From Fusobacterium massiliense (GTDB lineage: Bacteria > Fusobacteriota > Fusobacteriia > Fusobacteriales > Fusobacteriaceae): a DNA stretch of 64,000 bases. Shown here piece by piece: positions 28,334 through 47,350 of the stretch. The translations under genes were made by a program, and so were the position numbers. The DNA is taken from positions 744,001 through 808,000 of the forward strand of contig NZ_LT608327.1 in NCBI RefSeq assembly GCF_900095705.1, read 5' to 3'. Numbering within the stretch: the first letter of the stretch is position 1; each line of letters starts with the position of its first letter. The notes below the pieces were generated by a model, which searched no databases, was not told the origin of the DNA, and saw only the letters and a program-made list of their open reading frames with translations.

Positions 28334-28407
28334 AGCCCCTGATAGCCGTATGAGTTCTACGAGCTCAATAAACACAGGCTCTTCGAACTAATACGGACAT
28401 CGGGGCT
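28334..28407 (+). repeat. Dispersed palindrome copy 4 (changed stem ends)
   Basis: Same loop and inner arms as the common type, but the outer ends are AGCCCCTGATAG and ATCGGGGCT instead of AGTCTCTTGACAG and GTCAGAGACT. Both sides changed together, so the stem is kept. A TTTT run follows. The usual AT-rich flank is absent. Confidence 0.92.
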
Positions 28408-28420
28408 ATCTTTTGGATAA

Positions 28421-28592
28421 TTTAAAAATAAGTGAGTTATTTTTCCAGATTTTAGATTAAAAATCAAATAGAGTGAGCCGAACAAATCTTGGCGTGTCTG
28501 AGCTAACTTGTTAGCGAGTTTTGCCAAATTTGTAGCGAACTCTTGATTTTTAATCGTTAAGAAATCTGGTTATAACGAACTATTTTTAAATC
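28421..28592. repeat. Large inverted-repeat element (family II), best copy
   Basis: The arms 28421-28473 and 28538-28592 are about 50 bases each and pair with few mismatches (TTTAAAAATA, CCAGATTT and GATTAAAAATCAA blocks in the same order). Inside is a second stem (ACAAATCTTGGC against GCCAAATTTGT) and a small GCTAA-CTTG-TTAGC hairpin. No open reading frame. It has the shape of a miniature inverted-repeat element. Confidence 0.8.
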
Positions 28593-28666
28593 AACAAATT
28601 AAAATTTATCTGACTCGTAAAACTCATACAACTGTATAAATCTTTATTTAAATAAAAAATATAAAC

Positions 28667-28696
28667 TTGATTTCTAATAGAAAAAAATTATATAAT
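28667..28696 (+). promoter_or_regulatory. Promoter of the plsY-dnaN operon
   Basis: TTGATT (28667-28672) and TATAAT (28691-28696) are separated by 18 bases. AAAGGAGA follows, seven bases before the plsY ATG. Confidence 0.75.
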
Positions 28697-28740
28697 AATA
28701 CAACAAAGAACAAATCACATTTTTTTAAAGGAGATACAAA

Positions 28741-29325
28741 ATGCTTTTTATTTGGTTATTAATATTAAGTTATGTTATAGGTGCTATTCCTACTGGAGTA
28801 TGGTTAGGAAAAATTTTAAAAAATAAAGATGTTAGAAATTATGGAAGTAAAAATAGTGGTGCTACGAATTGTTACAGAGTTTTAGGAAAAAAAATTGGTA
28901 TAGCAGTATTAGTTGGAGATGTATTAAAAGGTTTTTTACCTTTGCTTATTGCTTCAAAATATCTACCTAATAAAAATCTATTAATAATTTTAGGTCTTGT
29001 TTCAATATTAGCTCATACTTATTCTGTTTTTATTGCATTCAAAGGTGGAAAAGGTGTTGCAACAAGTTTAGGAGTTTTCTTGTATTTTATACCAAAAATT
29101 ATCATATTACTTGTAGCTATTTTTGCTATGATAGTTTATTTCACTAAATATATATCACTAGGTTCTGTAACCGTTGCAATTTTACTACCTGTTTTTGTTT
29201 TCATGATGAATGATAATTTTTATTTATTCTTATTATCATTAATAGTATCTATTTTTGTAATATACAGACACAAAGAAAATATATTAAGATTACTTAATGG
29301 AACTGAAAATAAATTTAATTTATAG
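28741..29325 (+). CDS. plsY: Acyl-phosphate glycerol-3-phosphate acyltransferase
   Basis: A 194-aa inner-membrane enzyme with about five membrane spans that makes lysophosphatidate from acyl phosphate and glycerol-3-phosphate. The family motifs are visible: GAIPTGVWLGK, YGSKNSGATNCYRVLGKK and the glycine-rich AFKGGKGVATSLG. It is first gene after the 28667 promoter. It ends eight bases before dnaN, an unusual partner for a phospholipid gene. Confidence 0.96.
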   Translation: MLFIWLLILSYVIGAIPTGVWLGKILKNKDVRNYGSKNSGATNCYRVLGKKIGIAVLVGDVLKGFLPLLIASKYLPNKNLLIILGLVSILAHTYSVFIAFKGGKGVATSLGVFLYFIPKIIILLVAIFAMIVYFTKYISLGSVTVAILLPVFVFMMNDNFYLFLLSLIVSIFVIYRHKENILRLLNGTENKFNL

Positions 29326-29333
29326 GAGGGGCT

Positions 29334-30479
29334 ATGCATATAAAAGTTAATAGACAAGATTTTTTAAACTCTATAAGAATTGTTGAGAAAGCAATAAAAG
29401 AAAGTAAAATAAAACCGATTATTTCTTGTGGATATGTAAAAGTAAAAGATAATAGGTTGTATTTTACAGGAACAAATTTAGAAACTACAATAAAAACATC
29501 TATTTTTGTAGAAGAAGTGTATACTCCTGGGGAGATAGTTTTTTATCCGTCTATTATAGATGAATATATAAAAGAAATAAAAGATGAGTTTATCACACTT
29601 AAATTATCAAATAATAATGTGTTATCTATAGAAACTCAAGATTCTGTGACAGAATATGATGTTTTTAAAAGTGATGACTATCCAAATACATTTGAAAATA
29701 TTGTGTTAGATAGTAAAAACTTTGTTTTTCAATTTAAAAGTGAAGAACTAGTTAGTATATTTGAAAAAGTATTGTTTTCTGCAGATACACCTGACAATAT
29801 AGGTTTAAATTGTATTAGAATTGAAAGCATAGATAATAACTTACATTTTGTCTCTACTAACACTTATAGATTAACTTTTCTAAGAAAAACAATTGATAAG
29901 AGTATTGATAATTTTCAAGTTAGTGTGTTAGCTGAAACTGTCTCATATCTAATAAAAATAATAAAAGGTCTTCCTAACGATGATATAAGTATTTATAACG
30001 AAGGTGGCCATCTATATTTTCAATATAGAGATACTACAATAATTAGTAAATTACTAGAATTAAAATTCCCTGATTATGCTGGAATTTTTGAAAATATAGT
30101 GTATGACAAAAAATTAACTATAAAAAATGAAATATTGTTAAATCTATTAAAAAGAGTACTTATTTTTTCAAGAACTAATATGGAATCAAAATATTCATCA
30201 ACTTATGATTTTAAAATCAGAGCTAATGGTGAGAAAAAACTAACTCTTTCTGCTTTAAATGAAGTTGCAAGAATAAACGAAGTTATAGATGTTGAGTACG
30301 AAGGAGAAGACTTAAAAATTTCTTTAAACTCTAAATACTTACTTGAATTTATACAAAATATTCCTAGAGACAAAGAAATTGAGTTAGAACTTAGATACCC
30401 TAACTCAGCAGTAAAAGTAACAGAAAAAGGTAATAATGATTATGTATACATCATAATGCCTTTAGCATTAAGAGATTAA
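29334..30479 (+). CDS. dnaN: DNA polymerase III beta sliding clamp
   Basis: A 381-aa three-domain clamp. The N-terminal ILVKNRQDFL-like start, the middle LRLTFLRKT segment and the C-terminal ending YIIMPLALRD are all typical of DnaN, where the C-terminal M-P-x-R/L residues help form the peptide-binding pocket. AGGAGGGGCT precedes the ATG. It is encoded away from dnaA in this window, behind plsY. The protein rings DNA and tethers the polymerase. Confidence 0.95.
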   Translation: MHIKVNRQDFLNSIRIVEKAIKESKIKPIISCGYVKVKDNRLYFTGTNLETTIKTSIFVEEVYTPGEIVFYPSIIDEYIKEIKDEFITLKLSNNNVLSIETQDSVTEYDVFKSDDYPNTFENIVLDSKNFVFQFKSEELVSIFEKVLFSADTPDNIGLNCIRIESIDNNLHFVSTNTYRLTFLRKTIDKSIDNFQVSVLAETVSYLIKIIKGLPNDDISIYNEGGHLYFQYRDTTIISKLLELKFPDYAGIFENIVYDKKLTIKNEILLNLLKRVLIFSRTNMESKYSSTYDFKIRANGEKKLTLSALNEVARINEVIDVEYEGEDLKISLNSKYLLEFIQNIPRDKEIELELRYPNSAVKVTEKGNNDYVYIIMPLALRD

Positions 30480-30515
30480 CTAGAACAAATATTAAATATA
30501 AATTTGGGGTGAATT

Positions 30516-31802
30516 ATGGAAGAAAATAAAATAGAAAAAGTTCTTAGAATTTTAGAAGAAGAAATAATTGCAGCTGAAGGTTGTACTGAGCCTATCGCTT
30601 TGTCTTATGTTGCAGCAAAAGCTAGAAAAATTTTAGGTAAAATCCCAACAAAAGTTAATGTATTTTTATCTGGAAATATAATCAAAAATGTAAAAAGTGT
30701 GTTAATTCCTAGTAGTAATGGAATGGTTGGAATTGAAGCAGCTATTGCTATGGGGCTTATAGCTGGAGATGATGAAAAAGAATTAATGGTTATAAGTAAT
30801 GTTAACCAAGATGATTTAGTAGCTGTACAAAATTACTTAGATAAAAAAATAATCAAAACTTCTTTAGAGCCTGGGGATATCAAATTATATATCAGACTAG
30901 AAATTTCTGAAGGTTCTGATGAAGTAGTGCTTGAAATAAAACATACTCATACAAACATCACTAAAATAACAAAAAACGGCAAAATTCTGCTAGAACAAGT
31001 TTGTAACGATGGAGATTTTAATTCATCATTAACAGACAGAAAAGTTTTATCTGTTAAATTTATATATGATTTAGCAAAGAATATAGATATTGATTTAATA
31101 AGACCTATTTTTAAAAAAGTTATTACCTATAACTCAGCTATAGCTGAAGAAGGTCTAAAAGGAAAATATGGTGTCAATATCGGAAAAATGATACTTGATA
31201 ACATTGAAAAAGGTATTTATGGAAATGACATTAGAAATAAAGCTGCTAGTTATGCAAGTGCAGGTAGTGATGCTAGAATGAGTGGTTGTGCTCTTCCTGT
31301 TATGACAACTAGCGGTAGTGGAAATCAAGGTATGACTGCCTCTTTACCTATTATAAAATTTGCTGCTGAAAAAAATTTATCTGAAGAGGAATTAATAAGA
31401 GGTTTATTTGTTTCTCATTTAACAACAATACATGTAAAGACAAATGTAGGAAGACTATCTGCATATTGTGGAGCTATTTGTGCAGCTGCTGGTGTTGCAG
31501 CTTCTCTTACATACTTACATGGTGGTAGTTATGAAATGGTCTGTGATGCTATTACAAATATTTTAGGAAATTTATCAGGAGTTATTTGTGATGGAGCTAA
31601 AGCCTCTTGTGCTATGAAAATATCTTCTGGAATTTACTCTGCCTTTGATGCTACAATGCTTGCTTTACATAAAGATGTTTTGAAATCAGGAGATGGTATT
31701 ATTGGTGTTGATATTGAAGAAACAATAAAGAATGTTGGAGAACTTGCTCAAAATGGAATGAAAACAACAGATACAAAAATTTTGGAAATTATGACAAAAT
31801 AA
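30516..31802 (+). CDS. L-cysteine desulfidase / serine dehydratase alpha-like protein
   Basis: A 428-aa protein of the CyuA/YhaM (UPF0597) family, related to the alpha chain of iron-sulfur L-serine dehydratase. Conserved elements are AAEGCTEPIALSYVAAKA near the N-terminus, SGSGNQGMTASLP, and a cysteine-rich C-terminal part (YCGAICAAAG, VICDGAKASCAMK) that would hold the iron-sulfur cluster. Family members split cysteine to pyruvate, ammonia and hydrogen sulfide, which fits an oral H2S producer, but serine or another amino acid is possible. It lies 36 bp after dnaN. Confidence 0.85.
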   Translation: MEENKIEKVLRILEEEIIAAEGCTEPIALSYVAAKARKILGKIPTKVNVFLSGNIIKNVKSVLIPSSNGMVGIEAAIAMGLIAGDDEKELMVISNVNQDDLVAVQNYLDKKIIKTSLEPGDIKLYIRLEISEGSDEVVLEIKHTHTNITKITKNGKILLEQVCNDGDFNSSLTDRKVLSVKFIYDLAKNIDIDLIRPIFKKVITYNSAIAEEGLKGKYGVNIGKMILDNIEKGIYGNDIRNKAASYASAGSDARMSGCALPVMTTSGSGNQGMTASLPIIKFAAEKNLSEEELIRGLFVSHLTTIHVKTNVGRLSAYCGAICAAAGVAASLTYLHGGSYEMVCDAITNILGNLSGVICDGAKASCAMKISSGIYSAFDATMLALHKDVLKSGDGIIGVDIEETIKNVGELAQNGMKTTDTKILEIMTK

Positions 31803-31823
31803 AAAAGTAAGAGGGTGTAAAAA

Positions 31824-32201
31824 ATGTTAAAAAAGTTTTCAGAAGCACAAAAGTTAAATTATAACTATATGCTTTTTATTGAAATAGGAACTTTAAGCTC
31901 TGAAGATGATATTTCTAGTTTACAAGTTAAAGCTGTTACAATAGAAGGTTATTTTGAAACAATTAAACAAATTTATGATTATATCGAAAGTATGGAATTT
32001 ATTTCAACTGAGAAAATAGATAATAAATGGGAATGTGAAATTTCAAATATCTATGATGTTAGTAGAAAAATATATTTCATAAAAAATGAAGGAGTTACTT
32101 TTAACGAAGTTGATGATACAGATATTGTTGATAGAATAGTCAATAGAGGTCCAAACAAATTAGTTAATAAGAGTAAAGAATATTTAGAGGCTAGGGTCTA
32201 A
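31824..32201 (+). CDS. Hypothetical protein, 125 aa
   Basis: A soluble, acidic protein with no signal peptide or membrane segment and no family recognised. It begins 21 bp after the desulfidase gene with GAGGGTG upstream, and ends one base before the next small gene. Codon use is that of the neighbours. Probably cytoplasmic; being the penultimate gene of the plsY-dnaN transcript gives no clear role. Confidence 0.75.
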   Translation: MLKKFSEAQKLNYNYMLFIEIGTLSSEDDISSLQVKAVTIEGYFETIKQIYDYIESMEFISTEKIDNKWECEISNIYDVSRKIYFIKNEGVTFNEVDDTDIVDRIVNRGPNKLVNKSKEYLEARV

Positions 32202-32202
32202 A

Positions 32203-32520
32203 ATGAAAAGATTTCAAAATTCTACAATAGAGTATTCTTTAGAAAAAAATGAATTAGTTATAAGAGATGCTAACACTAATGGTATTTTTTTTGCAATAGA
32301 TTTTTTTAATGACAAGCAAATAAAAAGAATTTTCTCATTATATCCAGTGAATGTTGAATTACAATTTGATGATAATCTTGAGTTGAAATTCTCTATTGAA
32401 ACAAAAAACCATGAGCACAATGTTTTAACCTTGCTTTTCAACTTAAAGGAACTAACAGCTGATAAAAAATCAGTAATTAATATTCCTGATGAAGATGTAA
32501 ATAATATTACTTTTAACTAA
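32203..32520 (+). CDS. Hypothetical protein, 105 aa
   Basis: A 105-aa soluble, strand-rich protein starting one base after the preceding stop, so the two small genes are co-translated and may act together. No family recognised. It contains alternating hydrophobic and charged residues (NVELQFDDNLELKFSIETK) suggesting a beta-sheet fold. A strong intrinsic terminator follows 62 bases later and ends the transcript. Confidence 0.72.
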   Translation: MKRFQNSTIEYSLEKNELVIRDANTNGIFFAIDFFNDKQIKRIFSLYPVNVELQFDDNLELKFSIETKNHEHNVLTLLFNLKELTADKKSVINIPDEDVNNITFN

Positions 32521-32582
32521 TAAAAACTAGTAAACTATATTCAGATATATTATTTTTAATTTTATCACTTTATAATATCTAT

Positions 32583-32620
32583 AAATGCTATTGTTCAAAA
32601 TTTAACAATAGCATTTTTTA
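32583..32620 (+). terminator. Intrinsic terminator of the plsY operon
   Basis: AAATGCTATTGTT (32583-32595) pairs perfectly with AACAATAGCATTT (32604-32616) around an 8-base loop and is followed by a T run. Confidence 0.9.
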
Positions 32621-32631
32621 TTCTAAAATAA

Positions 32632-32750
32632 AGTCTTTTGATAGCCGTATGAGTTCTACGAGCTCAATAAACATAGGCTCTTCGAACTAATACGGACGCC
32701 AGAGACTAACTTTTATTATTTAAATTTATACTTTCCTATAGAGTAAAAAA
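32632..32750 (+). repeat. Dispersed palindrome copy 5 with right flank
   Basis: Core 32632-32707; the left arm reads AGTCTTTTGATAGCCGTATG. The flank with TTTATACTTTCCTATAGAGT runs to about 32750. It lies just behind a separate strong terminator, so it is not needed to end that transcript. Confidence 0.92.
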
Positions 32751-32779
32751 ACTTTTTTTAAATTTTATCTTAGAAGTCA

Positions 32780-32808
32780 TTGATTGATTTCAATAACTAT
32801 GATACAAT
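32780..32808 (+). promoter_or_regulatory. Promoter of the L,D-transpeptidase gene
   Basis: TTGATT (32780-32785), 17-base spacer, TACAAT (32803-32808), 46 bases before the chosen start. Confidence 0.6.
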
Positions 32809-32853
32809 AATACCTAACAAATTAAATTAAGAATTAAATTTATGGAGGAAACA

Positions 32854-34053
32854 ATGTATAAATATAAAAAAATATTATTAGGGTTTTTTCTTTTAGTTTC
32901 TACTCCTATTTTAACAAAAGCAGCATCTTTTGTTGAAACTTTAAACAATGATAAAATAGAAGTAATTGCAACTTATGATAATAAAATGCCTAGTGCTATA
33001 GAAAATATATATAAACCAAAATATACTATAGAAAAACCTATGTATTTAGATTATGTTTTTATTACATCTAGAGTGGCTAATTTAAGAAAACAACCTGATA
33101 CTAATTCAGAAATTTTAGGAAAATATACTTATGACAACAAACTAAAACTTTTGAAGAAGATAAAATATGAAGGTAATATCTGGTATCTTGTAGAAGATGA
33201 AAATGGAGTACAAGGATATATAGCAGCTAGTGTTACTAAAAAAAGAGATTTTAGATTTCAAATGGCTGTAGATAAAATACATGATTTAGAAAACTTTATA
33301 TCTTCTTCTCTAGATCAAGGTTATAAACTATCTACAACTCATACTTACATCCCAAATCCAAGCAATGCTAATGCACAAAGACAAAAAGATAAGTATGGTA
33401 CGAGTTTAGATCAAAATTTACTTGGTATAAGTGCAAAAGGAGAAGAAATAATAATTCCTGACAGATCTGTAGTAAAAATTCTTGAAGATAGAGGTGATAA
33501 AGTTCTAGTTAAAGCTCTTTCTATCCCAGAAGAATTAGAGATACCTAAAGCTAGATTAACTAATTATCCTACTGTTAAAAAAGGATTTAGAAAGGTCGTA
33601 GCAATAGACATAGAAAATCAAAATTTTATGGTTTTTGAAAAATCTAAATCAACAGATCAATGGGAAATGATTAGTTATGTTTACACAAAAACCGGTATTG
33701 ATAGTGAGTTAGGATATGAAACTCCAAGAGGTTTCTTTAATGTTCCTACTGTTAAGTATGTTATGCCTTACACAGACGAAACAGGTCAAAAACAAGGTTC
33801 AGCAAGATATGCTATAAGATTCTGTGGTGGTGGATATCTACATGGTACACCTATAAATGTTCAAGAAGAAATAAATAAAGAATTTTTTATAAAACAAAAA
33901 GAATTTACTCTTGGAACATATACAGGAACAAGAAAATGTGTTAGAACAACTGAAGAACATGCTAAATTTTTATTTGATTGGCTAGTTAAAAATCCAAATA
34001 AAAATTCTAATGAACAAAAACCAACTGAAGATATCTATTTTATAGCTTTTTAA
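32854..34053 (+). CDS. L,D-transpeptidase with SH3 domain, exported
   Basis: A 399-aa cell-wall enzyme. The N-terminal signal peptide (YKKILLGFFLLVSTPILTKA) is followed by an SH3-like domain (about 60-130: VANLRKQPDTNSEILGKY through GVQGYIAASV). A C-terminal YkuD domain carries the GGYLHGTPINV histidine and the TGTRKCVRTTEEH catalytic cysteine, a variant of the usual SxGCxR. It probably cross-links or modifies periplasmic peptidoglycan. A reading from 32842 would start inside the GGAGG site, so ATG 32854 is preferred. It precedes the pal gene, another envelope function. Confidence 0.88.
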   Translation: MYKYKKILLGFFLLVSTPILTKAASFVETLNNDKIEVIATYDNKMPSAIENIYKPKYTIEKPMYLDYVFITSRVANLRKQPDTNSEILGKYTYDNKLKLLKKIKYEGNIWYLVEDENGVQGYIAASVTKKRDFRFQMAVDKIHDLENFISSSLDQGYKLSTTHTYIPNPSNANAQRQKDKYGTSLDQNLLGISAKGEEIIIPDRSVVKILEDRGDKVLVKALSIPEELEIPKARLTNYPTVKKGFRKVVAIDIENQNFMVFEKSKSTDQWEMISYVYTKTGIDSELGYETPRGFFNVPTVKYVMPYTDETGQKQGSARYAIRFCGGGYLHGTPINVQEEINKEFFIKQKEFTLGTYTGTRKCVRTTEEHAKFLFDWLVKNPNKNSNEQKPTEDIYFIAF

Positions 34054-34073
34054 TCCTATAATATAGATAAAAA

Positions 34074-34190
34074 AGTCTCTTAACAGCCGTATGAGTTCTA
34101 CGAGCTCAATAAACACAGGCTCTTCGAACTAATACGGACGTCAGAGAATAATTTTTGCTATTTAAATTTATACTTTCCTATAGATTAAAA
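34074..34190 (+). repeat. Dispersed palindrome copy 6 with right flank
   Basis: Core 34074-34148, flank to about 34190. The flank motif TATACTTTCCTATAGATT ends only a few bases before the GGAGG of pal, so this copy supplies the upstream region of pal. Confidence 0.92.
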
Positions 34191-34203
34191 AAATGGAGGA
34201 TTT

Positions 34204-34752
34204 ATGAAAAAATTAATTATATTAGGGCTTTTAGGAATATTAGCTACAGCTTGTAGTAGTACAAAATCTTATGATAACATCAAGAGTTTAGGTGTTGACT
34301 CAAATAGTGACTATTCTCTTGAAGATACTGGAAGTCAAAAGAAAAAATTAGAAGATATTATAGTTTTCAATGAAAAAGGTGTTTCAATTAGAAGAGAAGG
34401 AAATAATCTTATTTTATCAATGCCAGAATTAATCTTATTTGACTTTGATAAATATGCAATAAAAGATGGAATAAAACCATCACTTTCTACTTTAGCTAAA
34501 GCATTAGAAGAAAATAAAGACATACATATTAAAATTGATGGTTATACTGATTTTATAGGTAGTGAAGGATATAACTTAGAATTATCTGTTAAAAGAGCTA
34601 GAGCTATAAAAGATTATTTAACATCAAAAGGAGCTATTGAAGATAATATTTCAATAGAAGGTTATGGAGAACAAAATCCAACTGCTGATAATAGCACTGA
34701 AACTGGAAGAGCTAGAAATAGAAGAGTTGAATTTATTATCTCTAGAGGATAA
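34204..34752 (+). CDS. OmpA-family peptidoglycan-associated lipoprotein (Pal-like)
   Basis: A 182-aa lipoprotein with signal and lipobox LATAC (Cys17). The C-terminal OmpA/MotB domain (about 75-180) has LILFDFDKYAIKDG, the peptidoglycan-binding IDGYTDFIGSEGYNLELS and the ending GRARNRRVEFII. It anchors the outer membrane to the cell wall. The gene follows the L,D-transpeptidase and is preceded directly by a dispersed palindrome flank and ATGGAGG. A terminator follows the gene. Confidence 0.93.
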   Translation: MKKLIILGLLGILATACSSTKSYDNIKSLGVDSNSDYSLEDTGSQKKKLEDIIVFNEKGVSIRREGNNLILSMPELILFDFDKYAIKDGIKPSLSTLAKALEENKDIHIKIDGYTDFIGSEGYNLELSVKRARAIKDYLTSKGAIEDNISIEGYGEQNPTADNSTETGRARNRRVEFIISRG

Positions 34753-34770
34753 AATATAAAAACAAATTAT

Positions 34771-34817: not shown

Positions 34818-34858
34818 GATACAACAAATTAGCTTTATTTAAAAATTTAGGAGGAAAT

Positions 34859-36666: not shown

Positions 36667-36783
36667 AGTCTCTTGACAGTCGTATGAGTTCTACGAGCTT
36701 AATGAACACAGATTCTTCAAAATAATATGGATATCAGAGAGTAATTTTAGATATTTAATTTTATACTTTTTTATAGAATAAAA
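36667..36783 (+). repeat. Dispersed palindrome copy 7 (partly decayed) with flank
   Basis: Core 36667-36742 keeps AGTCTCTTGACAG and most of the left arm. The right arm has several changes (ATATGGATATCAGAGAGT). The flank TTTTATACTTTTTTATAGAAT follows. It begins one base after the glpP stop codon. Confidence 0.85.
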
Positions 36784-38274: not shown

Positions 38275-38390
38275 AGTCTCTGACGTCCGTATTAGTTCGA
38301 AGAGCCTATGTTCATTGAGCTCGTAGAACTCATACGGCTGTCAAGAGACTAATTTTTCTATTTAATTTTATACTTTTCTACAGAATAAAA
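38275..38390. repeat. Dispersed palindrome copy 8, core flipped relative to its flank
   Basis: Core 38275-38350 is in the reverse orientation (AGTCTCTGACGTCCGTATTA first), but the AT-rich flank TTTAATTTTATACTTTTCTA still lies on the right (38351-38390), as in forward copies. Confidence 0.9.
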
Positions 38391-38954: not shown

Positions 38955-39062
38955 TTCTATAGGAAAGTATAAAAATAAATAGCAAAATTAGTCTCTGATG
39001 TCCATATTACTCTGGAGAGCATTTCAGTGAGCTCGGAAGAGTCATACGGCTGTCAGGAGACT
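38949..39062 (-). repeat. Dispersed palindrome copy 9 (second loop type), reverse
   Basis: Core 38990-39062 with inner arms ACTCT/AGAGT instead of AGTTC/GAACT. The flank (TTCTATAGGAAAGTATA on the plus strand) lies to the left at 38949-38989, as expected for a reverse copy. Confidence 0.92.
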
Positions 39063-39075
39063 TTATTTATTAATC

Positions 39076-40069: not shown

Positions 40070-40188
40070 AGTCTCTGACGTCCGTATTAGTTCGAAGAGC
40101 CTATGTTCATTGAGCTCGTAGAACTCATACGGCTGTCAAGAGACTAATTTTCATTATTTAATTTTATACCTTCCTATAAAATAAAAAA
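40070..40188. repeat. Dispersed palindrome copy 10, core flipped relative to its flank
   Basis: Core 40070-40145 is reversed, while the flank (TTTAATTTTATACCTTCCTA) lies on the right to about 40188. Same arrangement as copy 8 and nearly identical core. Confidence 0.9.
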
Positions 40189-40321: not shown

Positions 40322-41134
40322 ATGAAAGATATTAGTTTTTTAAAAGAAAAAGCTAAAGAAATTAGAAGATCTATTGTTTCTATGATAGCTGAAGCAAAAT
40401 CAGGACATCCAGGTGGTTCTTTATCTGCAACTGATATACTTACTGCTTTATATTTTTCTGAAATGAATATAGATCCTAATAATCCAAAAATGGAGGGAAG
40501 AGATAGATTTGTTTTATCAAAAGGACATGCTGCTCCTGCAATCTATTCTACTTTAGCTGAAAAAGGATATTTTTCTAAAGATGAACTATTAACTTTAAGA
40601 AAATTTGGAAGTAGATTACAAGGTCACCCTGATATGAAAAAACTTCCAGGTATTGAAATTTCTACTGGTTCACTAGGGCAAGGGTTATCTGTTACTAATG
40701 GTATGGCTCTAAATGCAAAAATTTATGATGAAAAATACAGAACTTACATCGTATTAGGAGATGGAGAAATACAAGAAGGTCAAATTTGGGAAGCTGCAAT
40801 GACAGCGGCTCACTATAAACTAGATAATCTATGTGCTTTCCTTGATCATAACAATCTACAAATTGACGGTAACGTTTCTGAAATTATGGGTATTGAGCCT
40901 GTAAATAAAAAATGGGAAGCTTTTGGTTGGAACGTTATTGAAATAGATGGGCATAACTTTGAAGAAATTTTATCTGCATTAGATAAAGCTAAAGAGTGTA
41001 AAGGTAAACCTACTATAATTATTGCTAAAACAATAAAAGGTAAAGGAGTTTCATTTATGGAAAATGTTTGTGGTTTCCATGGAGTTGCTCCAACAGCAGA
41101 TGAATTATCAAGAGCATTGGCTGAATTAGTTTAA
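40322..41134 (+). CDS. Transketolase N-terminal subunit
   Basis: A 270-aa subunit holding the thiamine-diphosphate-binding half of a split transketolase: SGHPGGSLSATDIL, LSKGHAAPA, and the TPP motif GDGEIQEGQIWEA followed by the DHNNLQIDG metal-binding part. It moves two-carbon units in the pentose-phosphate pathway with its partner next door. A reading from 40307 would overlap the GAGGAG site; ATG 40322 is preferred. The C-terminal subunit begins 23 bp later. Confidence 0.95.
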   Translation: MKDISFLKEKAKEIRRSIVSMIAEAKSGHPGGSLSATDILTALYFSEMNIDPNNPKMEGRDRFVLSKGHAAPAIYSTLAEKGYFSKDELLTLRKFGSRLQGHPDMKKLPGIEISTGSLGQGLSVTNGMALNAKIYDEKYRTYIVLGDGEIQEGQIWEAAMTAAHYKLDNLCAFLDHNNLQIDGNVSEIMGIEPVNKKWEAFGWNVIEIDGHNFEEILSALDKAKECKGKPTIIIAKTIKGKGVSFMENVCGFHGVAPTADELSRALAELV

Positions 41135-41157
41135 ATTTAAATTTTAGGAGGATTATT

Positions 41158-42087
41158 ATGAGTAAAAAGTCTACAAGACAAGCCTATGGAGAAGCCTTAG
41201 TAGAACTTGGTAAAATAAATAATGACATAGTAGTTTTGGATGCTGATTTAAGTAAGTCTACAAAAACAGATTTATTTAAAAAAGAATTTCCAAAAAGACA
41301 TATAAATATAGGAATTGCAGAAGCAGATTTAATAGGTACAGCTGCTGGACTTGCAACTTGTGGAAGAATTCCATTTGCATCAACATTTGCTATGTTTGCT
41401 GCCGGAAGAGCATTTGAACAAATAAGAAATACTGTTGCTTATCCAAAATTAAATGTTAAAATAGCTCCAACACATTCAGGAATATCTGTTGGAGAAGATG
41501 GTGGTTCTCACCAATCAATAGAAGATATTTCTCTTATGAGATCTATCCCTGGTATGATAGTACTATCTCCTTGTGATGCTATAGAAACTAAAAAAATGGT
41601 TTTTGCTGCTGCTGAATATAATGGACCGGTTTATTTAAGACTTGGAAGATTAGATGTTGAAACAATATTAGATGATAACTATGATTTTCAAATTGGTATA
41701 GCTAATACTTTAAAAGATGGTAAAGATGTAACTATTATCTCAACAGGACTTCTAACTCAAGAAGCAATGAAAGCTGCTCAAGAACTTGAAAAAGAAAATA
41801 TTTCTATTAGAGTTATAAATATGGGAACTATAAAACCATTAGATGGAGAAACTGTATTAAAAGCTGCTCAAGAAACTAAATTTATAATAACTGCTGAAGA
41901 ACATTCTGTTATTGGTGGTTTAGGTTCTGCTGTTTCTGAATTTTTATCAGAAACTCATCCAACTCTTGTAAAAAAACTTGGAGTTTATGATAAATTTGGA
42001 CAAAGTGGTAAGGGAGCTGAAATGCTTGAAAAATATGAACTTACTGCAGCTAAATTAATTTCTATGGTTAAAGAAAATTTAAAATAA
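41158..42087 (+). CDS. Transketolase C-terminal subunit
   Basis: A 309-aa partner of the preceding gene with the pyrimidine-binding domain (NIGIAEADLIGTAAGLA, HSGISVGEDGGSHQSIEDI) and the transketolase C-terminal domain (FIITAEEHSVIGGLGSAV). Together the two make one enzyme; the split form is common in anaerobes. TTAGGAGGATTATT precedes the ATG. Two palindromes in tandem follow the stop codon, and no separate classical terminator is seen, so copy 11a may act as one. Confidence 0.95.
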   Translation: MSKKSTRQAYGEALVELGKINNDIVVLDADLSKSTKTDLFKKEFPKRHINIGIAEADLIGTAAGLATCGRIPFASTFAMFAAGRAFEQIRNTVAYPKLNVKIAPTHSGISVGEDGGSHQSIEDISLMRSIPGMIVLSPCDAIETKKMVFAAAEYNGPVYLRLGRLDVETILDDNYDFQIGIANTLKDGKDVTIISTGLLTQEAMKAAQELEKENISIRVINMGTIKPLDGETVLKAAQETKFIITAEEHSVIGGLGSAVSEFLSETHPTLVKKLGVYDKFGQSGKGAEMLEKYELTAAKLISMVKENLK

Positions 42088-42111
42088 AAATTTATATTTT
42101 TTCTATAAATA

Positions 42112-42184
42112 AAGTCTCTGATGTCCATATATTAGTTCTATGAGCCAATAAATAAGCTCTTAAATTAATATGAATGTCAGAGAT
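42112..42184 (-). repeat. Dispersed palindrome copy 11a (decayed)
   Basis: The outer arms are kept (AGTCTCTGATGTCCATAT at the left, ATGAATGTCAGAGAT at the right) and the inner loop has changed. It is followed by a T run after the transketolase stop codon. Confidence 0.8.
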
Positions 42185-42297
42185 TTTTTTATTCTATAGA
42201 AAAGTATAAATTTAATATGAAATTAGTCTCCGACATCCGTATTACTCTGGAGAACATTTCGGTGAGCTCGAAAGAGTCATACGGCTGTCAGGAGACT
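42185..42297 (-). repeat. Dispersed palindrome copy 11b (second loop type), reverse
   Basis: Core 42225-42297, flank TTCTATAGAAAAGTATAAAT at the left. It directly abuts copy 11a, giving a tandem of two elements. Confidence 0.9.
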
Positions 42298-42317
42298 TTA
42301 TTTATTTAAATCAACAT

Positions 42318-42346
42318 TTGATTTTTAAAGAAAAATAATATATAAT
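42318..42346 (+). promoter_or_regulatory. Promoter of the 42389 gene
   Basis: TTGATT (42318-42323), 17-base spacer, perfect TATAAT (42341-42346), 43 bases before the ATG. Confidence 0.75.
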
Positions 42347-42388
42347 GAACAAAAATAGTATTTAATAAATATATGAGAGAGGAAGCTT

Positions 42389-42718
42389 ATGTATAGGAAA
42401 TTTATTTTATTATTTTTATCTGTGTTTTCATTTACTTATGCAGTAGATGAAATAGAAAATAAATATATTGAAAATGGATATATTACTACAAAAGTTGGAC
42501 TTGATATAAGCAAGTCTGATTTTGAAATTGGTAAGATATCCATTTTTGTTTTAGAAGGAAAAATAGCTAAAGTTATATATGGAAGAGGGGCTATTTTAAA
42601 TAACTCTAGAGGTTTAACACAAAGTCAATTAGAAAAACTAAGTGAAATAGGTTCAAAATATATAAAAGATCCTATTTTTCAAAATATATACAAATTCAAA
42701 AGGAGGAAAACTAACTGA
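42389..42718 (+). CDS. Small exported protein, unknown
   Basis: A 109-aa protein with a signal peptide (residues 1-18, ending TYA). The mature part of about 90 residues is rich in charged residues and has a basic tail (KFKRRKTN). No family recognised. AGAGAGGAAGC precedes the ATG, and a good promoter lies at 42318-42346. It is the first gene of the accessory stretch that runs to 46504. A ribosome-site-like AAAGGAGGA lies within its last codons, although no gene begins right after it. Confidence 0.65.
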   Translation: MYRKFILLFLSVFSFTYAVDEIENKYIENGYITTKVGLDISKSDFEIGKISIFVLEGKIAKVIYGRGAILNNSRGLTQSQLEKLSEIGSKYIKDPIFQNIYKFKRRKTN

Positions 42719-42756
42719 AAGTTATATCATAAGTATCTTAAAGGAGGAGGCATATC

Positions 42757-43218
42757 GTGAACAATTTTAGTGAAAATTTTATGTATAATTTAAAATATTT
42801 TTTAACTTTAATAACTACTATAGATCTATCTATTTCAGAATTTTTCCTTGTTTATTATATAATATTTTCATTTTGTATTATAAATTTTCTCCAAATAAAA
42901 TTTTGTAAGAAACTTTATAATGAAGTAAAAATTGAAATAATATTATTACCTAAGTTAACTTATTTAATTCCAGGTATATACAGAATATACATGTATATAT
43001 TAGGAATATTTATATTAATAATTTTAAAAATAAAGTATAAGAAAAATATTAAAGAAGTTTTTTTCTTTTTTTTAATATATTATGAAACTTTATTAGTGAA
43101 TGCTGTAGTTGTTTCAATTGAGTTAATATATTATCTGTTTAATCAAGAACTTTTCATTGATGCGATTAATGAAAATTTTGAGTTATATAAAAATATGTCA
43201 TTAGAATTTTATTTTTAA
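42757..43218 (+). CDS. Membrane protein, unknown (GTG start)
   Basis: A 153-aa protein of at least three or four hydrophobic segments (FFLVYYIIFSFCIINFL; YLIPGIYRIYMYILGIFILI; VFFFFLIYYETLLVNAVVV). The start is GTG at 42757 behind an excellent AAAGGAGGAGG site six bases away, which makes the frame credible. No family recognised. It lies between the small exported protein and a broken fragment, in a region that looks like a collection of orphan toxin or immunity modules; an immunity or membrane accessory role is possible but unproved. Confidence 0.6.
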   Translation: MNNFSENFMYNLKYFLTLITTIDLSISEFFLVYYIIFSFCIINFLQIKFCKKLYNEVKIEIILLPKLTYLIPGIYRIYMYILGIFILIILKIKYKKNIKEVFFFFLIYYETLLVNAVVVSIELIYYLFNQELFIDAINENFELYKNMSLEFYF

Positions 43219-43228
43219 AAAATTAAAC

Positions 43229-43555
43229 AAGTATCAGTAATGATAAGTTATTAAATGATGTACTAAGAGCAAAAGTCTATAAAGAACCAGATATAAAAAT
43301 GGGACTAACAAATAAGATCCAAACAGACATAAACATGATAATATCGGATATAATGAGGATAACTACAATTTAAATAGACAATCAGGTATATATAAAAGAA
43401 AAACAATAAAAGCAAGAATAAAGGGCAAAGAAGAAAAGATAGCAGTACCAAATTATGAATATAAAATAGGCGAAATGGATGGAAAAGATATGAGAAGTAT
43501 AATAGAAAGATGGGAAGATAAAAGAGTCCAAGAAAGAAGGTATGGAGGTAAATAA
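43229..43555 (+). pseudogene. Frameshifted C-terminal gene fragment
   Basis: Frame one encodes NDVLRAKVYKEPDIKMG and continues through GLTNKIQTDIN, then stops. From about 43330 the coding signal continues in another frame (YNEDNYNLNRQSGIYKRK through SIIERWEDKRVQERRYGGK) up to a TAA that overlaps the next ATG. One frameshift would join the two. It looks like the tail of a larger secreted protein whose 5' part is gone. The family cannot be named. The TAATG overlap with the lipoprotein gene suggests that the complete gene was coupled to it. Confidence 0.6.
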
Positions 43556-44076
43556 TGAAAAAAATATTTATAAGCTTAGTGTCTTTATTAGTTTTTACAT
43601 CATGTATATTACATGTGTATAGTTATTATCCAATTAGTAGTTATGGAATTGATAAACTTTCTATATCAGCAGAATTGATAAATCATGAAGATGAAAATTC
43701 CCCAATTAAATATATAGGGGTATCAGATGTTAGAAGTAGTGTTAATACTCCTCATAAGGTTAAGATATTATCTTCAACAATAAAAATAGTTGATAACAAA
43801 AATAAGGAATATATAGTAAAAACTAACTCAAATAGTGGATATATACATACATATAAGCAAGGAGTAGTAATAACAGATGATTTTAAAGCTTATATAGGAA
43901 AAGTCCAATTAGATGATGGAACAATAATAGATATACCTCCACTTTCATTTAAAAAAAATGTCTATGTAGAAAAATATAGTGTAATTTTGGATACAATAAA
44001 TGCAGGAGCGCGAGCAAAAATATTATTTAATGGAACAATAGAAGAATATAAAGAATACAAGAATCTAAAGGAATAA
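43555..44076 (+). CDS. Lipoprotein, unknown, possible orphan immunity protein
   Basis: A 173-aa lipoprotein with signal and lipobox VFTSC (Cys17). The mature protein looks strand-rich (VKILSSTIKIVDNKNKEYIV) and has no recognised domain. Its ATG overlaps the stop of the broken upstream fragment, and GGAGGT within that fragment serves as ribosome site. Small lipoproteins placed directly behind a toxin-like gene are often immunity or accessory proteins, but here that is inference from position only. Confidence 0.65.
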   Translation: MKKIFISLVSLLVFTSCILHVYSYYPISSYGIDKLSISAELINHEDENSPIKYIGVSDVRSSVNTPHKVKILSSTIKIVDNKNKEYIVKTNSNSGYIHTYKQGVVITDDFKAYIGKVQLDDGTIIDIPPLSFKKNVYVEKYSVILDTINAGARAKILFNGTIEEYKEYKNLKE

Positions 44077-44126
44077 GTAATAATTAATAATTAATTTTTT
44101 ATAGGTAGTCTAAGAAATTAAACTTA

Positions 44127-44265
44127 AAGGAGAAATTTTTCTAAAAAATCTGAAAATATCACAGGTAATGATGTAAATATAAATGTAGCAAATTTACATC
44201 TTGAAAGTTTATAAGATAAAGAGAAATCAAGACATAATAGTTTCAATGTTTCAGTTGGAAATTTA
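44127..44265 (+). pseudogene. Filamentous-haemagglutinin/CdiA-like remnant
   Basis: About 46 codons read KSENITGNDVNINVANLHLE, then SL, an in-frame TAA, and DKEKSRHNSFNVSVGNL. The pattern GxDVNI..NLxxESLQDKxKS..SxSVG is typical of the repeat region of filamentous haemagglutinin and CdiA proteins; the TAA stands where that family has a CAA-encoded glutamine. The frame is then cut by the IS at 44266. Without the IS it would run in frame into the lipoprotein ORF at 45836. Confidence 0.65.
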
Positions 44266-44331
44266 GGTTGTATACTAAATGGTGTTGATAGAAAAGAATT
44301 TCTATTAATGCCATTTTTTAATAAAAAAAAA

Positions 44332-44360
44332 TTGAGACAATGAAATTTTCCTGTTAAAAT
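44332..44360 (+). promoter_or_regulatory. Transposase promoter inside the IS
   Basis: TTGAGA (44332-44337), 17-base spacer, TAAAAT (44355-44360), upstream of the transposase start. Confidence 0.6.
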
Positions 44361-44397
44361 TAAATCGCTCAAAATAACCATAAAGGAAGTGATTTCA

Positions 44398-45675
44398 TTG
44401 TCTCTATCTGATTTTATCAAAAATATCTTAAATATTCAAGATAATAATATTTCTTTTCCAGAAGAAAACTATTTTCAAATTGTTAAAAAAAACGATTTCT
44501 TTATTAAAGTTTTTAAAGGATTTCTTAAATCTAATCACTGCGCTTGTCCACATTGTAACTCTAAAAATATTGTTAAAAATGGTTCGAGAATTCGTAAAGT
44601 TAAATATATTCCTTACCAGAATTACAATATTGAACTTGAGCTTACTGTACAAAGGTATATTTGTAAGGATTGTAAAAAAACTTTTTCACCTTCCACTAAT
44701 ATTGTTAGTAACAATTCTAGTATATCTAATAATCTTAAATATACTATCGCGCTTGAACTTCAAAAAAATATTTCTCTTACATCTATTGCTAAGAGATATA
44801 GTATTTCTGTCTCTTCTGTACAAAGAATTATGGATATCTGCTATTCTAATTTTAAGGTTAATAGAGAACATTTACCAGGAACTATTTGTATTGATGAATT
44901 TAAATCTGTTAAAAATATTGATGGCGCTATGTCTTTTGTTTTTGCTGACTTTCAAAGTAAGAGCATTATCGATATAGTGGAAGATAGAAGACTTCGTTCT
45001 CTTACAGAATATTTTTCAAGATTTTCTTTAAAAGCTAAAAATAATGTGAAATATATTTGTATGGATATGTATGCTCCATATATTAGCTTAGTTAAATCTA
45101 TCTTTCCTAATGGAGAAATAGTTCTAGATAAATTTCATATTGTTAACCTTATTAACAGAGCATTTAATCAAACTAGAATATATATTATGAACTCTATTCA
45201 AGATCCTTCTTTAAAAAGAAAATTAAAGAGATTTTGGAAGTTATTATTAAAATATTATCCTGACCTTTGCGAAATAAAATACTACTGTCAAAGTTTTAAG
45301 TACAAATTAAGTAGTAAAGATAAAGTAGATTATATTCTTGATAAAATACCTGAATTAGAAATTAATTTTAATATATATCAAGATATTATCCAAGCAATTA
45401 AACATAATAATTTTAAAAGATTTGAAGGAATAGTAGAAAAATATCTTGGAAGTAAAGAAAAAATTTCTGAGAAAATGAGAGTTGCTTTAAAAACTCTTAA
45501 AAAATATATGGAATATATTAAAAATATGTTTGAAACTAATATTACTAATGGAGTAATAGAAGGTTTAAATAATAAAATTAAATCAATAAAAAGAACTGCA
45601 TTTGGATATTCAAAATTTAACAATTTCAAAAAGCGTATATTAATTCAAGAAGGAATTGTTTCAATTAATGCTTAA
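44398..45675 (+). CDS. tnp: ISL3-family transposase
   Basis: A 425-aa transposase. An N-terminal zinc ribbon (CACPHCNSKNIVKNGSR ... YICKDCKKTF) and a helix-turn-helix (LTSIAKRYSISVSSVQRIM) are followed by the DDE catalytic domain: first Asp in TICIDEFKS, second in YICMDMYAPYI, and Glu in GVIEGLNNKIKSIKRTAFGY. The family ends with that GLNNKIK segment. A GTG at 44389 would overlap the ribosome site AAGGAAG; the TTG at 44398 gives the usual MSLSDFIKNIL start. The gene appears intact, so the IS may be active. An AAGAGAATTTT inverted repeat (45714-45751) follows. Confidence 0.95.
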   Translation: MSLSDFIKNILNIQDNNISFPEENYFQIVKKNDFFIKVFKGFLKSNHCACPHCNSKNIVKNGSRIRKVKYIPYQNYNIELELTVQRYICKDCKKTFSPSTNIVSNNSSISNNLKYTIALELQKNISLTSIAKRYSISVSSVQRIMDICYSNFKVNREHLPGTICIDEFKSVKNIDGAMSFVFADFQSKSIIDIVEDRRLRSLTEYFSRFSLKAKNNVKYICMDMYAPYISLVKSIFPNGEIVLDKFHIVNLINRAFNQTRIYIMNSIQDPSLKRKLKRFWKLLLKYYPDLCEIKYYCQSFKYKLSSKDKVDYILDKIPELEINFNIYQDIIQAIKHNNFKRFEGIVEKYLGSKEKISEKMRVALKTLKKYMEYIKNMFETNITNGVIEGLNNKIKSIKRTAFGYSKFNNFKKRILIQEGIVSINA

Positions 45676-45835
45676 TTTTTTTATGCAATAATGAATTTTA
45701 ATAATAATAAAAAAAGAGAATTTTCAAGTTTTTATTCTCAAAAATTCTCTTAATTATGCTAAGTCATAGTCTAAACTTTTTCATCAACACTATTTGACAA
45801 ATAGCCGAAATTTATCAATAGAGGAGCTGATAAAA

Positions 45836-46504
45836 ATGATAAAAAATAGTTTTAAATTTATAATTTCGATTATTTTAATTATGACTACTAGTGCTTGTTC
45901 TAGTAATAATTTTTGGGGATTATTTAAACCACATTTTTTAACTGGAACCTATATAGATGCTTATGCAATAATAGAGGATGGTAAGATAAATAGAATGGGA
46001 ATACCTAAAGAAGATATAGATAAAATGGATAATATAATAAATAATAAATATGGAATTCGATTTATAAATGATGAGCGAATATACGCCCTTAAAGGAGGTG
46101 ATGAAAATTATGAAATAAAATTTTATAATGACTTTAAAATGACAGTAAATGGAAAAGAATACATAATGCCTAAAGAAAAAATAAGAGAATATTCTGATAA
46201 TAATTATTTCTATGATTTACCAATAGAAATAACAAATACAGAGTATAATGAATATATATTAGATATAGGAGAAATAGAAATTATTGATACAGATGGAAAA
46301 ATAATAAGACCAAGAACTAAAATACCACCAATATTATTTAAAAAAACTATTTTTAGAAGATTTGTAAATGACATAAATGGGAATAATTATGATGTGTATT
46401 ATAGAGGTTGGGCAGAAGATTATCCAAAGGATCCAAGTACTTTAAAAAAGATATATAATAATCTTGAGAAAAATTATGGTAATTTAAAAATTATAAAAAA
46501 ATAA
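45836..46504 (+). CDS. Lipoprotein, unknown, possible orphan immunity protein
   Basis: A 222-aa lipoprotein. The signal peptide runs from MIKNSFKFIISIILIMTT to the lipobox TSAC (Cys21). The mature part has no recognised domain. A reading back to 45794 crosses the IS end; ATG 45836 follows GAGGAGCTGATAAAA. The insertion left about 30 bases upstream of the start and would have separated the gene from its old promoter. Like the 43555 gene it sits behind a degraded secreted-protein fragment, the arrangement of orphan toxin/immunity cassettes. Confidence 0.65.
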   Translation: MIKNSFKFIISIILIMTTSACSSNNFWGLFKPHFLTGTYIDAYAIIEDGKINRMGIPKEDIDKMDNIINNKYGIRFINDERIYALKGGDENYEIKFYNDFKMTVNGKEYIMPKEKIREYSDNNYFYDLPIEITNTEYNEYILDIGEIEIIDTDGKIIRPRTKIPPILFKKTIFRRFVNDINGNNYDVYYRGWAEDYPKDPSTLKKIYNNLEKNYGNLKIIKK

Positions 46505-46521
46505 ATAGTTTAATTTTTGAG

Positions 46522-46559
46522 GAGACTGTGAACTTTTTTTCGAGACTGTGAACTTTTTT
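46522..46559. repeat. Tandem 20-bp direct repeat
   Basis: GAGACTGTGAACTTTTTT occurs twice with a 20-base period (46522-46540 and 46542-46559), just after the lipoprotein gene. The rest of the gap to 46713 is AT-rich, and no gene, terminator or further repeat is seen in it. Confidence 0.8.
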
Positions 46560-46713
46560 CTGTAAATTTTATTCTTCTATGATTAGAATTACTTAATTAA
46601 GTTTTAACATATTAATATAATATTTTTTATCTGTCAAGATTAAGGTATTCATTTTTGGGTACCTTTTTCTTTTTATGCTCCAAATCTACCTTCATACATT
46701 ATACTAAATTCTC

Positions 46714-46878
46714 CTAAGCAAAAAATAATGAACACTTTTTAAATAACCATGTACATAGAAATATCATTAAAATTACACTTAAACAACCACAAGTAACTTT
46801 TCCTAAGTAATAGATAATAACCCCTGCTATTACCCCCCATATTACTAACATCACTAAACCAAATAAAATATCATCCAT
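46714..46878 (-). CDS. Small membrane protein, 54 aa
   Basis: An ATG at 46878 opens 54 codons encoding two hydrophobic helices (ILFGLVMLVIWGVIAGVIIYY, split by LGKVTCGC, then LSVILMIFLCTWLF) with a short KK-containing tail. It begins only four bases after the stop of the 47110 gene, which supports translation as a pair. The ribosome site is weak (AAAGATG). No family recognised. Confidence 0.5.
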   Translation of the reverse strand: MDDILFGLVMLVIWGVIAGVIIYYLGKVTCGCLSVILMIFLCTWLFKKCSLFFA

Positions 46879-46882
46879 AATA

Positions 46883-47110
46883 TCACATCTTTTTATATAA
46901 TCTTACACCATTTCTGTTTGTGTAAAAACTTGCTATTCTTTTTGTTTCTACTTCTCTTTTTACAGAATTATAAAAATCTCTGTATAAATATTCTCCCATA
47001 CAGGCTTGAACTGCTAATAAATCTTCTAAAGCAAATTCAATTCCTTTTGTGTATCTCATTTCAATTTCAGCAATAGCTTTTGCTACTTGACCTTTCATAT
47101 CTCTTATCAT
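46883..47110 (-). CDS. Hypothetical protein, 75 aa
   Basis: A short soluble, helical, charged protein (MIRDMKGQVAKAIAEIEM...). A reading from 47131 exists, but ATG 47110 lies about ten bases after AAAGGAG, which suits the later start. It contains one cysteine and a basic C-terminal part ending RLYKKM. No family recognised. It is coupled to the small membrane protein gene four bases downstream. The pair lies between the accessory region and the glp operon. Confidence 0.6.
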   Translation of the reverse strand: MIRDMKGQVAKAIAEIEMRYTKGIEFALEDLLAVQACMGEYLYRDFYNSVKREVETKRIASFYTNRNGVRLYKKM

Positions 47111-47191
47111 TTTAAAGCAACTCCTTTGCATTAAATATTATTTAAGACTATTATATTTGAAAAAAATTATATTTTCAATTCTTTTTACAGA

Positions 47192-47225
47192 AAAATCTGC
47201 TGTATTTTACTTTACAACAGATTTT
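47192..47225 (-). terminator. Hairpin downstream of the glp operon
   Basis: AAAATCTG(C)TGTA at 47192-47204 pairs with TACA(A)CAGATTTT at 47213-47225. A T run follows on the minus strand, downstream of palindrome copy 12. Confidence 0.6.
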
Positions 47226-47239
47226 CTATGAATTATTTT

Positions 47240-47350
47240 TTTATTTATAAATAAAGTATAAATTTAATATAAAAATTAGTCTCCGACGTCCGTATTACTC
47301 TGGAGAGCATTTCGGTAAGCTCGGAAGAGTCATACGGCTATCAAGAGACT
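47240..47350 (-). repeat. Dispersed palindrome copy 12 (second loop type), reverse
   Basis: Core 47278-47350 with ACTCT/AGAGT inner arms; a shortened flank lies to the left (47240-47277). It starts about 23 bases after the stop of the DUF1667 gene. Confidence 0.9.

Follow-up and report, generated by a model that had tools for sequence, protein, structure and literature searches.

A family of short palindromic repeats was analysed in a 64,000-nucleotide (nt) stretch of the Fusobacterium massiliense genome (contig NZ_LT608327.1, positions 744,001 to 808,000; G000:C6:744001-808000 in our numbering), called the window below. The genome measures 1.81 Mb, and the GC content of the window is 24-32% per 4 kb. 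The window contains 15 good copies of a bulged hairpin, 14 of them distinct, and two degenerate copies (Table 1). Judged from sequence, this is a small mobile palindrome family, and we lean towards a reading in which the hairpin is part of a non-autonomous mobile element of ~120 nt, with hairpins exchanged between loci beside differing tails and in either orientation. The sequence examined comprises the window, 20 stretches of 20 kb and loci of ~3 kb, merged to 550,229 nt. In these, nhmmer gave 193 matches, of which 175 were near full length and 174, having sufficient flank, were aligned. Because the stretches were picked where matches are dense, copy densities in them are biased upward.

Table 1. 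Hairpin copies and associated features in the window (forward and inverted refer to the orientation of the hairpin relative to its own tail).
Position	Strand	Feature	E value
8980..9053	+	A/B hybrid copy of the hairpin; inner arm A-like on the left and B-like on the right, inner stem mispaired	
10369..10443	+	Type A hairpin copy, forward; its hairpin is byte-identical at 12 loci	
16690..16753	-	Degenerate hairpin copy	0.003
28334..28407	+	Copy 4, type G hairpin with TAGCCCC/GGGGCTA as its outer stem; inner 61 nt as in two A copies, T-A at pair 16-82	
28420..28600	+	Another large, imperfect palindrome; makes up the right part of the composite (~300 nt) containing copy 4	
32632..32706	+	Hairpin copy, type A, forward	
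34074..34148	+	Hairpin copy, type A, forward	
34149..34185	+	AT tail at the element's right end (example), TAATTTTTGCTATTTAAATTTATACTTTCCTATAGAT	
36667..36741	+	Hairpin copy, type A, forward, decayed	
38276..38350	-	Hairpin copy, type A, inverted; its tail starts on the + strand, at 38351	
38992..39062	-	Hairpin copy, type B, forward	
40071..40145	-	Hairpin copy, type A, inverted	
42114..42183	+	Degenerate hairpin copy	0.0005
42227..42297	-	Hairpin copy, type B, forward	
47280..47350	-	Hairpin copy, type B, forward	
50628..50702	+	Hairpin copy, type A, forward	
51649..51722	-	Hairpin copy, type A, forward, between open reading frames 50702-51589 and 51727-53637	
54382..54456	+	Hairpin copy, type A, forward	
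56800..56872	+	Hairpin copy, type A, forward	

The element is intergenic and consists of a T-rich left end, [T]AAATAAA, a 75-nt bulged hairpin and an AT tail. In flank profiles the conserved left end is AAATAAATAA, and the tail of ~37 nt ends in TATACTTTCCTATAGAA, usually followed by TAAAA, with no conservation beyond. From the base upwards, the hairpin plan is 7 bp, a bulged T, 3 bp, a 2x2 mismatch, 6 bp, a 1x1 mismatch, 5 bp, an internal loop, 4-5 bp and a loop. The strong palindrome lies ~8 nt from the left end of the element, and none equally strong was seen at the right end. The conserved ends AAATAAA and CTATAGAA are not inverted copies of each other; the element is too short to code and has no terminal inverted repeats, which, together with the lack of a clear target duplication, led us to reject a miniature inverted-repeat transposable element (MITE), which would share both features with a known transposon. 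A half-hairpin pattern allowing at most three mismatches has 402 matches in the genome and 11 for the reversed control, which gives ~390 copies, and a covariance model built from the 15 window copies matches at least 150 places. The same model has no match in 40 relatives and 95 other genomes of the order, two overlapping sets searched under stricter filters. Viral contigs (exact pattern), plasmids, phages and a genome-contig pattern search gave no match either, although records near this genome may be missing from them; carriage by a phage or plasmid was rejected on the basis of these searches. No description of a ~120-nt element of this kind was found at title and abstract level, in a search that left most subscription journals outside.

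Three versions of the hairpin occur among the 174 aligned copies, namely type A (139-140 copies), type B (21-22, as one copy classifies either way) and type G (13). Version B has a new inner stem, and version G has the outer stem of copy 4. The initial annotation pointed out that the arms of copy 4 differ on both sides with pairing kept, which is correct: copy 4 reads AGCCCCTGAT...ATCGGGGCT where most others read AGTCTCTTGAC...GTCAGAGAC(T), with single-base variants. The two matched inner-arm versions that it described, AGTTC/GAACT and ACTCT/AGAGT, are also both present in the window copies, with two exceptions. In the hybrid copy the left inner arm AGTTTTT mismatches the right arm AGAGT and the copy folds differently, and the copy at 36667 has the inner arms AGTTC/AAAAT. 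Over 25 stem pairs, the A and B consensuses differ by four two-sided and no one-sided changes, together with nine differences at unpaired positions, and the A and G consensuses by six two-sided and no one-sided changes and by nothing else. The probabilities of such patterns under random placement, ~3e-7 (A-B) and ~2e-9 (A-G), assume independent changes, an assumption that copy 4 contradicts.

The inner 61 nt are identical in all 13 aligned copies that carry the G hairpin, and they are those of the A copies C6:126514 and C5:303625. The differences between G and A are confined to the outer seven pairs and the flanks, and the change of copy 4 at pair 16-82 is common to 23 A copies. Because only the outer pairs and the flanks differ together, five of the six paired changes of copy 4 are best read as one block event, and copy 4 would be a chimera, with an A inner hairpin within the outer arms and flanks of another repeat. 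It forms the left part of a ~300-nt composite; a DNA search found 11 places, that in the window among them, with a complete or nearly complete version (82-100% identity). The 13 G copies have an identity of 0.934 in the 34-nt right flank and look as if they had spread as a unit. Insertion of the hairpin into many different hairpins was rejected as an explanation, since only two paired-arm frames, A/B and G, occur among 173 matches. The palindrome in the right part of the composite forms a repeat family of its own at 13 places in the genome; it stands without the hairpin at C5:126097 and C5:353971, and it has one relative of 72% identity in the genus mate G001.

The paired changes reflect few founder or block events, not running compensation. 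In the 15 window copies, 15 two-sided cells were counted against 5.7 in shuffles, the covariation score was 0.185 against 0.125, and 94.3% of cells were paired against 90.9%, each value being reached by 0 of 500 shuffles. The measures least inflated by relatedness are weak, with six pairs showing a two-sided change against 4.0 (26 of 500 shuffles) and 15 further pair types against 14.9 (335 of 500). With the sampled genomic copies aligned, covariation is seen as a raw excess: co-changes at the 25 pairs number 221 in the 174 copies and 69 within type A, against 80 and 32 expected from the mutation loads of columns and copies, while unpaired columns reach 0.87 (all copies) and 0.93 (A) of expectation. 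However, the copies are not independent, and when 3003 column pairs are ranked by G-test, few of the 25 stem pairs reach the top 25 (four for all copies and two for A, with 0.21 expected). On a tree, this excess shrinks to 20 co-substitutions (11 keep the pair) against a null of 15.8 for all copies (P 0.15), and for A alone the figures are 18 (9 keep the pair) against 12.5 (P 0.086). The events amount to 0.80 per stem pair and 0.37 per unpaired column pair, a difference mostly explained by column and branch rates. A single FastTree tree was used, and since the short sequences leave it poorly resolved, the co-substitution test is weakened either way.

Changes on one side of the stem comprise 83 wobbles and 148 mismatches, with C>T in 81 and G>A in 74 cases, so that an RNA signature is lacking and neither strand is favoured as RNA. 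C>T and G>A make up 390 of the 659 mutations in type A. Conservation is moderately higher at paired sites, where G/C positions vary in 9.0% and A/T positions in 2.5% of cases, compared with 11.5% and 4.5% at unpaired sites. The initial annotation further held that the folded form has mattered during spread or retention of the repeat. The first half of this is plausible, and folding probably matters during the spread of the hairpin element; RNA-type retention of the folded form is not supported, despite the moderately higher conservation of paired sites.

Copying from one arm to the other by gene conversion within the palindrome could also create paired changes, with no selection on folding. 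The excess of double changes over independence, both in all copies and within A, fits such a process, as does the decayed copy C5:374449 with nearly perfect inner arms. In addition, some copies pair where most mismatch, with A-T at 17/81 in 12, T-A at 18/80 in 6 and T-A at 27/73 in 2 of the 174. However, the 12 A-T cases at 17/81 are single C>T changes, the commonest mutation here, and the asymmetric features of the hairpin persist: the alignment shows the bulged T in 168 of 174 copies and a gap at that position in none, and the mismatches A17.C81, G18.A80 and G27.A73 are kept in 155, 152 and 155 copies. Regular arm copying would erase both bulge and mismatches, which largely contradicts this origin of the paired changes, and we consider it very unlikely. 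From the two-sided founder changes together with the persistent asymmetric features, it follows that the hairpin plan was kept while the arms changed and that frequent arm-to-arm copying is improbable.

The orientation of the hairpin relative to the tail is clear in 153 A and B copies, and eight are unclassified. Of 140 type A hairpins, 101 are forward, 33 inverted and six unclassified, and the 19 oriented type B hairpins are forward. The 12 loci with one identical hairpin include eight forward and four inverted copies, and nine other loci that share another identical hairpin include two forward and seven inverted ones. Inverted copies are younger than forward copies (median 2 vs 4 differences, P 0.0004); this, with the lack of any inverted B, led us to reject in-place site-specific inversion as a general cause of the flips. 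Three tail types, as well as unclassed tails, carry inverted hairpins, and A hairpins are also found in B-typical tails, where five of six are inverted; tails were assigned to classes by eye, with 108 of 153 copies left unclassed. Some identical 30-nt tails carry both A and B hairpins.

Hairpin and tail are nearly uncoupled, which was unexpected. Among 126 pairs of loci with identical hairpins, one of which reaches at least 95% tail identity, the mean tail identity is 0.725 in the same and 0.715 in different orientation. Pairs that differ at 6-10 hairpin sites have values of 0.709 and 0.704, and unrelated flanks 0.50. Across 134 oriented A copies, tail identity stays at 0.70-0.73 up to 10 hairpin differences and is 0.66-0.68 beyond. 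Within 56 near-consensus copies (34 forward, 22 inverted), the Mantel correlation of hairpin and tail is 0.04 (P 0.34), and it is 0.05 (P 0.33) for B copies. We infer an exchange of hairpins because the linkage of hairpin and tail is nearly absent. The main rival is ordinary subfamily history with selection, in which the unit moves whole, the hairpin must fold to be mobilised, compensated masters found the versions and the AT tail drifts neutrally and fast. This is possible, though we doubt it. Founder changes that are all two-sided, paired sites that vary less than unpaired ones and nested insertions that carry the tail all suit it, as do the REP sub-families with alternative complementary stem residues mentioned in a part of PMC3733652. 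It does not account well for identical-hairpin loci with tails no closer than those of other pairs, for near-consensus hairpin variants unlinked to tails, or for identical 30-nt tails beside A and B hairpins and hairpins in both orientations.

Insertion was examined at syntenic gaps in same-genus genomes, in seventeen copy-relative comparisons, most but not all of which support it; the gaps were taken from our own open reading frame calls, with starts not curated. The gap of the copy at 51649 is 137 nt, compared with 19 and 0 in two genus relatives. The gap in the relative is shorter by about the element or more in the cases of 137 vs 12, 161 vs -28 (overlapping frames), 153 vs 2, 150 vs 48, 230 vs 100, 264 vs 113 and 573 vs 356 (two copies, counted twice). 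It is shorter by less than the element in 193 vs 108 and 194 vs 140 and 148, and longer in 185 vs 214, 278 vs 429 (two copies in the gap) and 149 vs 439. Reading by eye, we found nested copies at C5:319411, C6:141012 and C6:61253, each in the loop of another copy, and also copies in tandem. A search for target duplication in 104 copies gave a flank-flank match at most 0.04 above expectation over the offsets tried, and single nested cases can be read either way; the end offsets and lengths tried gave no convincing sign of a duplication. A hairpin-less tail as the empty target was rejected, as only two of 82 tail matches lie away from nhmmer copies, both with hairpin remnants by eye.

The right end of the element has a preferred neighbour. 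In the 104 copies with a placeable tail end (92 A, 12 B), right ends adjoin terminator-like hairpins in 39 cases, with 11.2 expected by letter shuffling, and left ends in 10 (8.8 expected). In the DNA 45 nt further to the right, such a hairpin occurs in 5 of 100 (10.7 expected). At G000:C6:622625 and 622812, two copies flank one bidirectional terminator-like hairpin with their tails facing it. Gap types were likewise derived from our own open reading frame calls. In the window and the stretches together, 36 copies lie in convergent gaps (18.1 expected), 67 in tandem gaps (71.4) and 28 in divergent gaps (41.4), with P 1.5e-5 for the distribution, and the tail runs opposite to tandem genes in 43 cases against 24 (P 0.027). 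The window alone has no bias, with two convergent (3.0 expected), 13 tandem (11.6) and two divergent (2.4) copies and directions of 6 vs 7.

These neighbourhoods could also mean a function at the transcript level, with a structured RNA or a transcription terminator selected at each locus. In RNA folding, both strands of the tested A copy and G copy had z-scores between -6.1 and -7.5; the two strands of the B copy scored -5.7 and -3.6, and one strand of the hybrid copy -4.0. Folds as single-stranded DNA (n=4) gave -3.1 to -6.4. The value of about -6 on both strands of the type A copy, the enrichment of convergent gaps and the T-rich DNA after the stems agree with such a function. Nevertheless, one-sided changes have neither a wobble preference nor a strand bias, the orientation of the hairpin varies and copies decay. 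The stretches had been chosen for their copies, and gap types in the window alone are near expectation. In addition, Rfam gave no family at or above the gathering score over the palindromes, and searches with two copies gave only weak matches below it (best E 0.049). We therefore regard a transcript-level function as quite unlikely.

The tail motif TTATACTTTCCTATATAATAAAA also occurs in the genus relative G002, 10 times in 460,000 nt, seven of these beside a terminator-like hairpin (1.0 expected). It was found once in 324,460 nt of G001 and once in 200,000 nt of G019, whereas the 200,000 nt of G007 and seven named loci had none, and Markov controls gave none. At the G002 loci L170-L172 and L175-L194, several tail motifs are joined by eye to a different repeated body with GCTGACTTCGTCAGC-type hairpins.

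The exchange of hairpins that we favour could have proceeded as follows. The element would insert in intergenic DNA, often with its tail end against a terminator-like hairpin, and the three founder versions would have arisen with both arms changing together. A successful hairpin may then have been laid over the hairpins at other element loci, by gene conversion or by cassette exchange via the symmetric outer arms, and through this overlay hairpins would come to stand in both orientations and next to a variety of tails. Spreading copies would be the main target of selection for the hairpin plan, with settled copies decaying under the C>T/G>A bias. Copy 4 may be a product of the same kind of exchange. 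It is a tentative and rather improbable extension that this is a new kind of mobile unit, in which a folded hairpin is a copied cassette that overwrites resident hairpins via its outer arms in either orientation while the tails stay, and whose carrier inserts beside intrinsic terminators, with a tail motif that recurs in G002 with another body.

Several observations weigh against the exchange. Part of the pattern could also come from numerous active masters whose hairpin is constrained and whose AT tails change fast. A weak correlation of hairpin and tail exists over the 134 oriented A copies (Mantel r 0.19, P 0.014), and the tail comparison includes some copies without a recognisable tail. 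None of 19 B hairpins is inverted, against 33 of 134 A hairpins (P 0.014), which is unexpected under free exchange. The tail identity of 0.728 between B copies and 0.727 between B and inverted A copies fits exchange, but it also fits fast tail drift. The three nested insertions include their tails, hence whole-unit movement is also possible. Finally, no mobilising enzyme was found in the genome, where Y1_Tnp, Resolvase, Transposase_20 and RVT_1 were the families searched.

Paired changes in repeats are readily mistaken for proof of selection on folding, and hundreds of copies make it possible to separate founder events, block exchange and decay. If the exchange of hairpins really is independent of the flanking DNA, it has to be controlled for when covariation is counted in repeat families. 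The genome would then be a natural assay of the hairpin features that a mobilising or recombining activity needs, with the bulge and the mismatches kept and the arm sequence and orientation free.

Other features of the window include a lysine riboswitch at 8412-8593 on the minus strand (Rfam RF00168, 75 bits) and a tRNA-Leu at 9241-9327 on the same strand. Between 28001 and 44000 the sign of the GC skew is the reverse of that found over most of the window, in line with a change in gene direction. The frames beside the copy at 51649 are presumably GalU-like (50702-51589) and MetG-like (51727-53637). The protein of the former has 77 and 78% identity in the two genus mates G001 and G002, and its nearest named matches are Cetobacterium metagenome-assembled genomes and Fusobacterium mortiferum, with 74-78% identity.

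For the mobilising enzyme, the Pfam family Y1_Tnp has one match in the genome, in a frame of 47 amino acids, so no intact Y1 transposase was found; a lost or external enzyme is possible. Resolvase has one match, with no copy of the element in its 3.3-kb locus, L205, where a lone serine-resolvase-like frame matches PF00239 in part. Transposase_20 has no match in the genome, and RVT_1 none in the genome or in two genus relatives. The locus L081 holds what we take to be a decayed IS605-type remnant, with a short Y1 transposase fragment and a long TnpB-like frame. Its end hairpin is of GTGGGAG type and differs by eye from that of the element, of which the 3.1-kb locus has no copy.

Among known systems, mobilisation of the IS200/IS605 (Y1) kind uses a hairpin on one defined strand relative to the ends, unlike the type A hairpin, which occurs in both orientations (101 forward, 33 inverted). 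Group IIC introns target terminators, and the element resembles them in preferring terminator-like hairpins, but it has 120 nt, is not an intron and is accompanied by no RVT_1 match. With integron attC sites, which go with an integron integrase and a cassette array, there is a formal likeness only, in the imperfect hairpin with bulge and spacer. According to the relevant part of one report, REP palindromes with RAYT transposases are high-copy, intergenic and often downstream of genes (PMC3733652). The element is likewise a high-copy intergenic palindrome with compensated sub-families, and it too often lies downstream of genes. REPs, however, measure 20-40 nt with a GTAG/CGTC end tag, whereas the element has a 75-nt hairpin and a tail, no terminal tag and, as far as found, no intact transposase of the Y1 type; CGTC occurs internally in most hairpins of type A but is altered in G and not conserved (column 82 is A in 51 of 174). 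Palindrome-associated transposable elements (PATEs), in the section of PMC3119063 that describes them, are short, without a transposase gene, terminal inverted repeats or a clear target duplication, with palindromes near the ends that are related to IS605-type ends, many copies and nested insertions. The element is similar in being short, without a transposase gene, terminal inverted repeats or a clear target duplication, and in having a palindrome near one end, many copies and nested insertions; it differs in that the palindrome is strong on the left side only, the hairpin takes both orientations relative to the ends and a relation to IS605 ends was not seen. The small mobile repeats (SMRs) of Haloquadratum, as far as the same section goes, have terminal inverted repeats, no clear target duplication, an unknown mobiliser and a targeting preference (PMC3119063). 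The element shares with them the targeting preference, the lack of a clear target duplication and the lack of a known mobiliser, and unlike them it ends in an AT tail.

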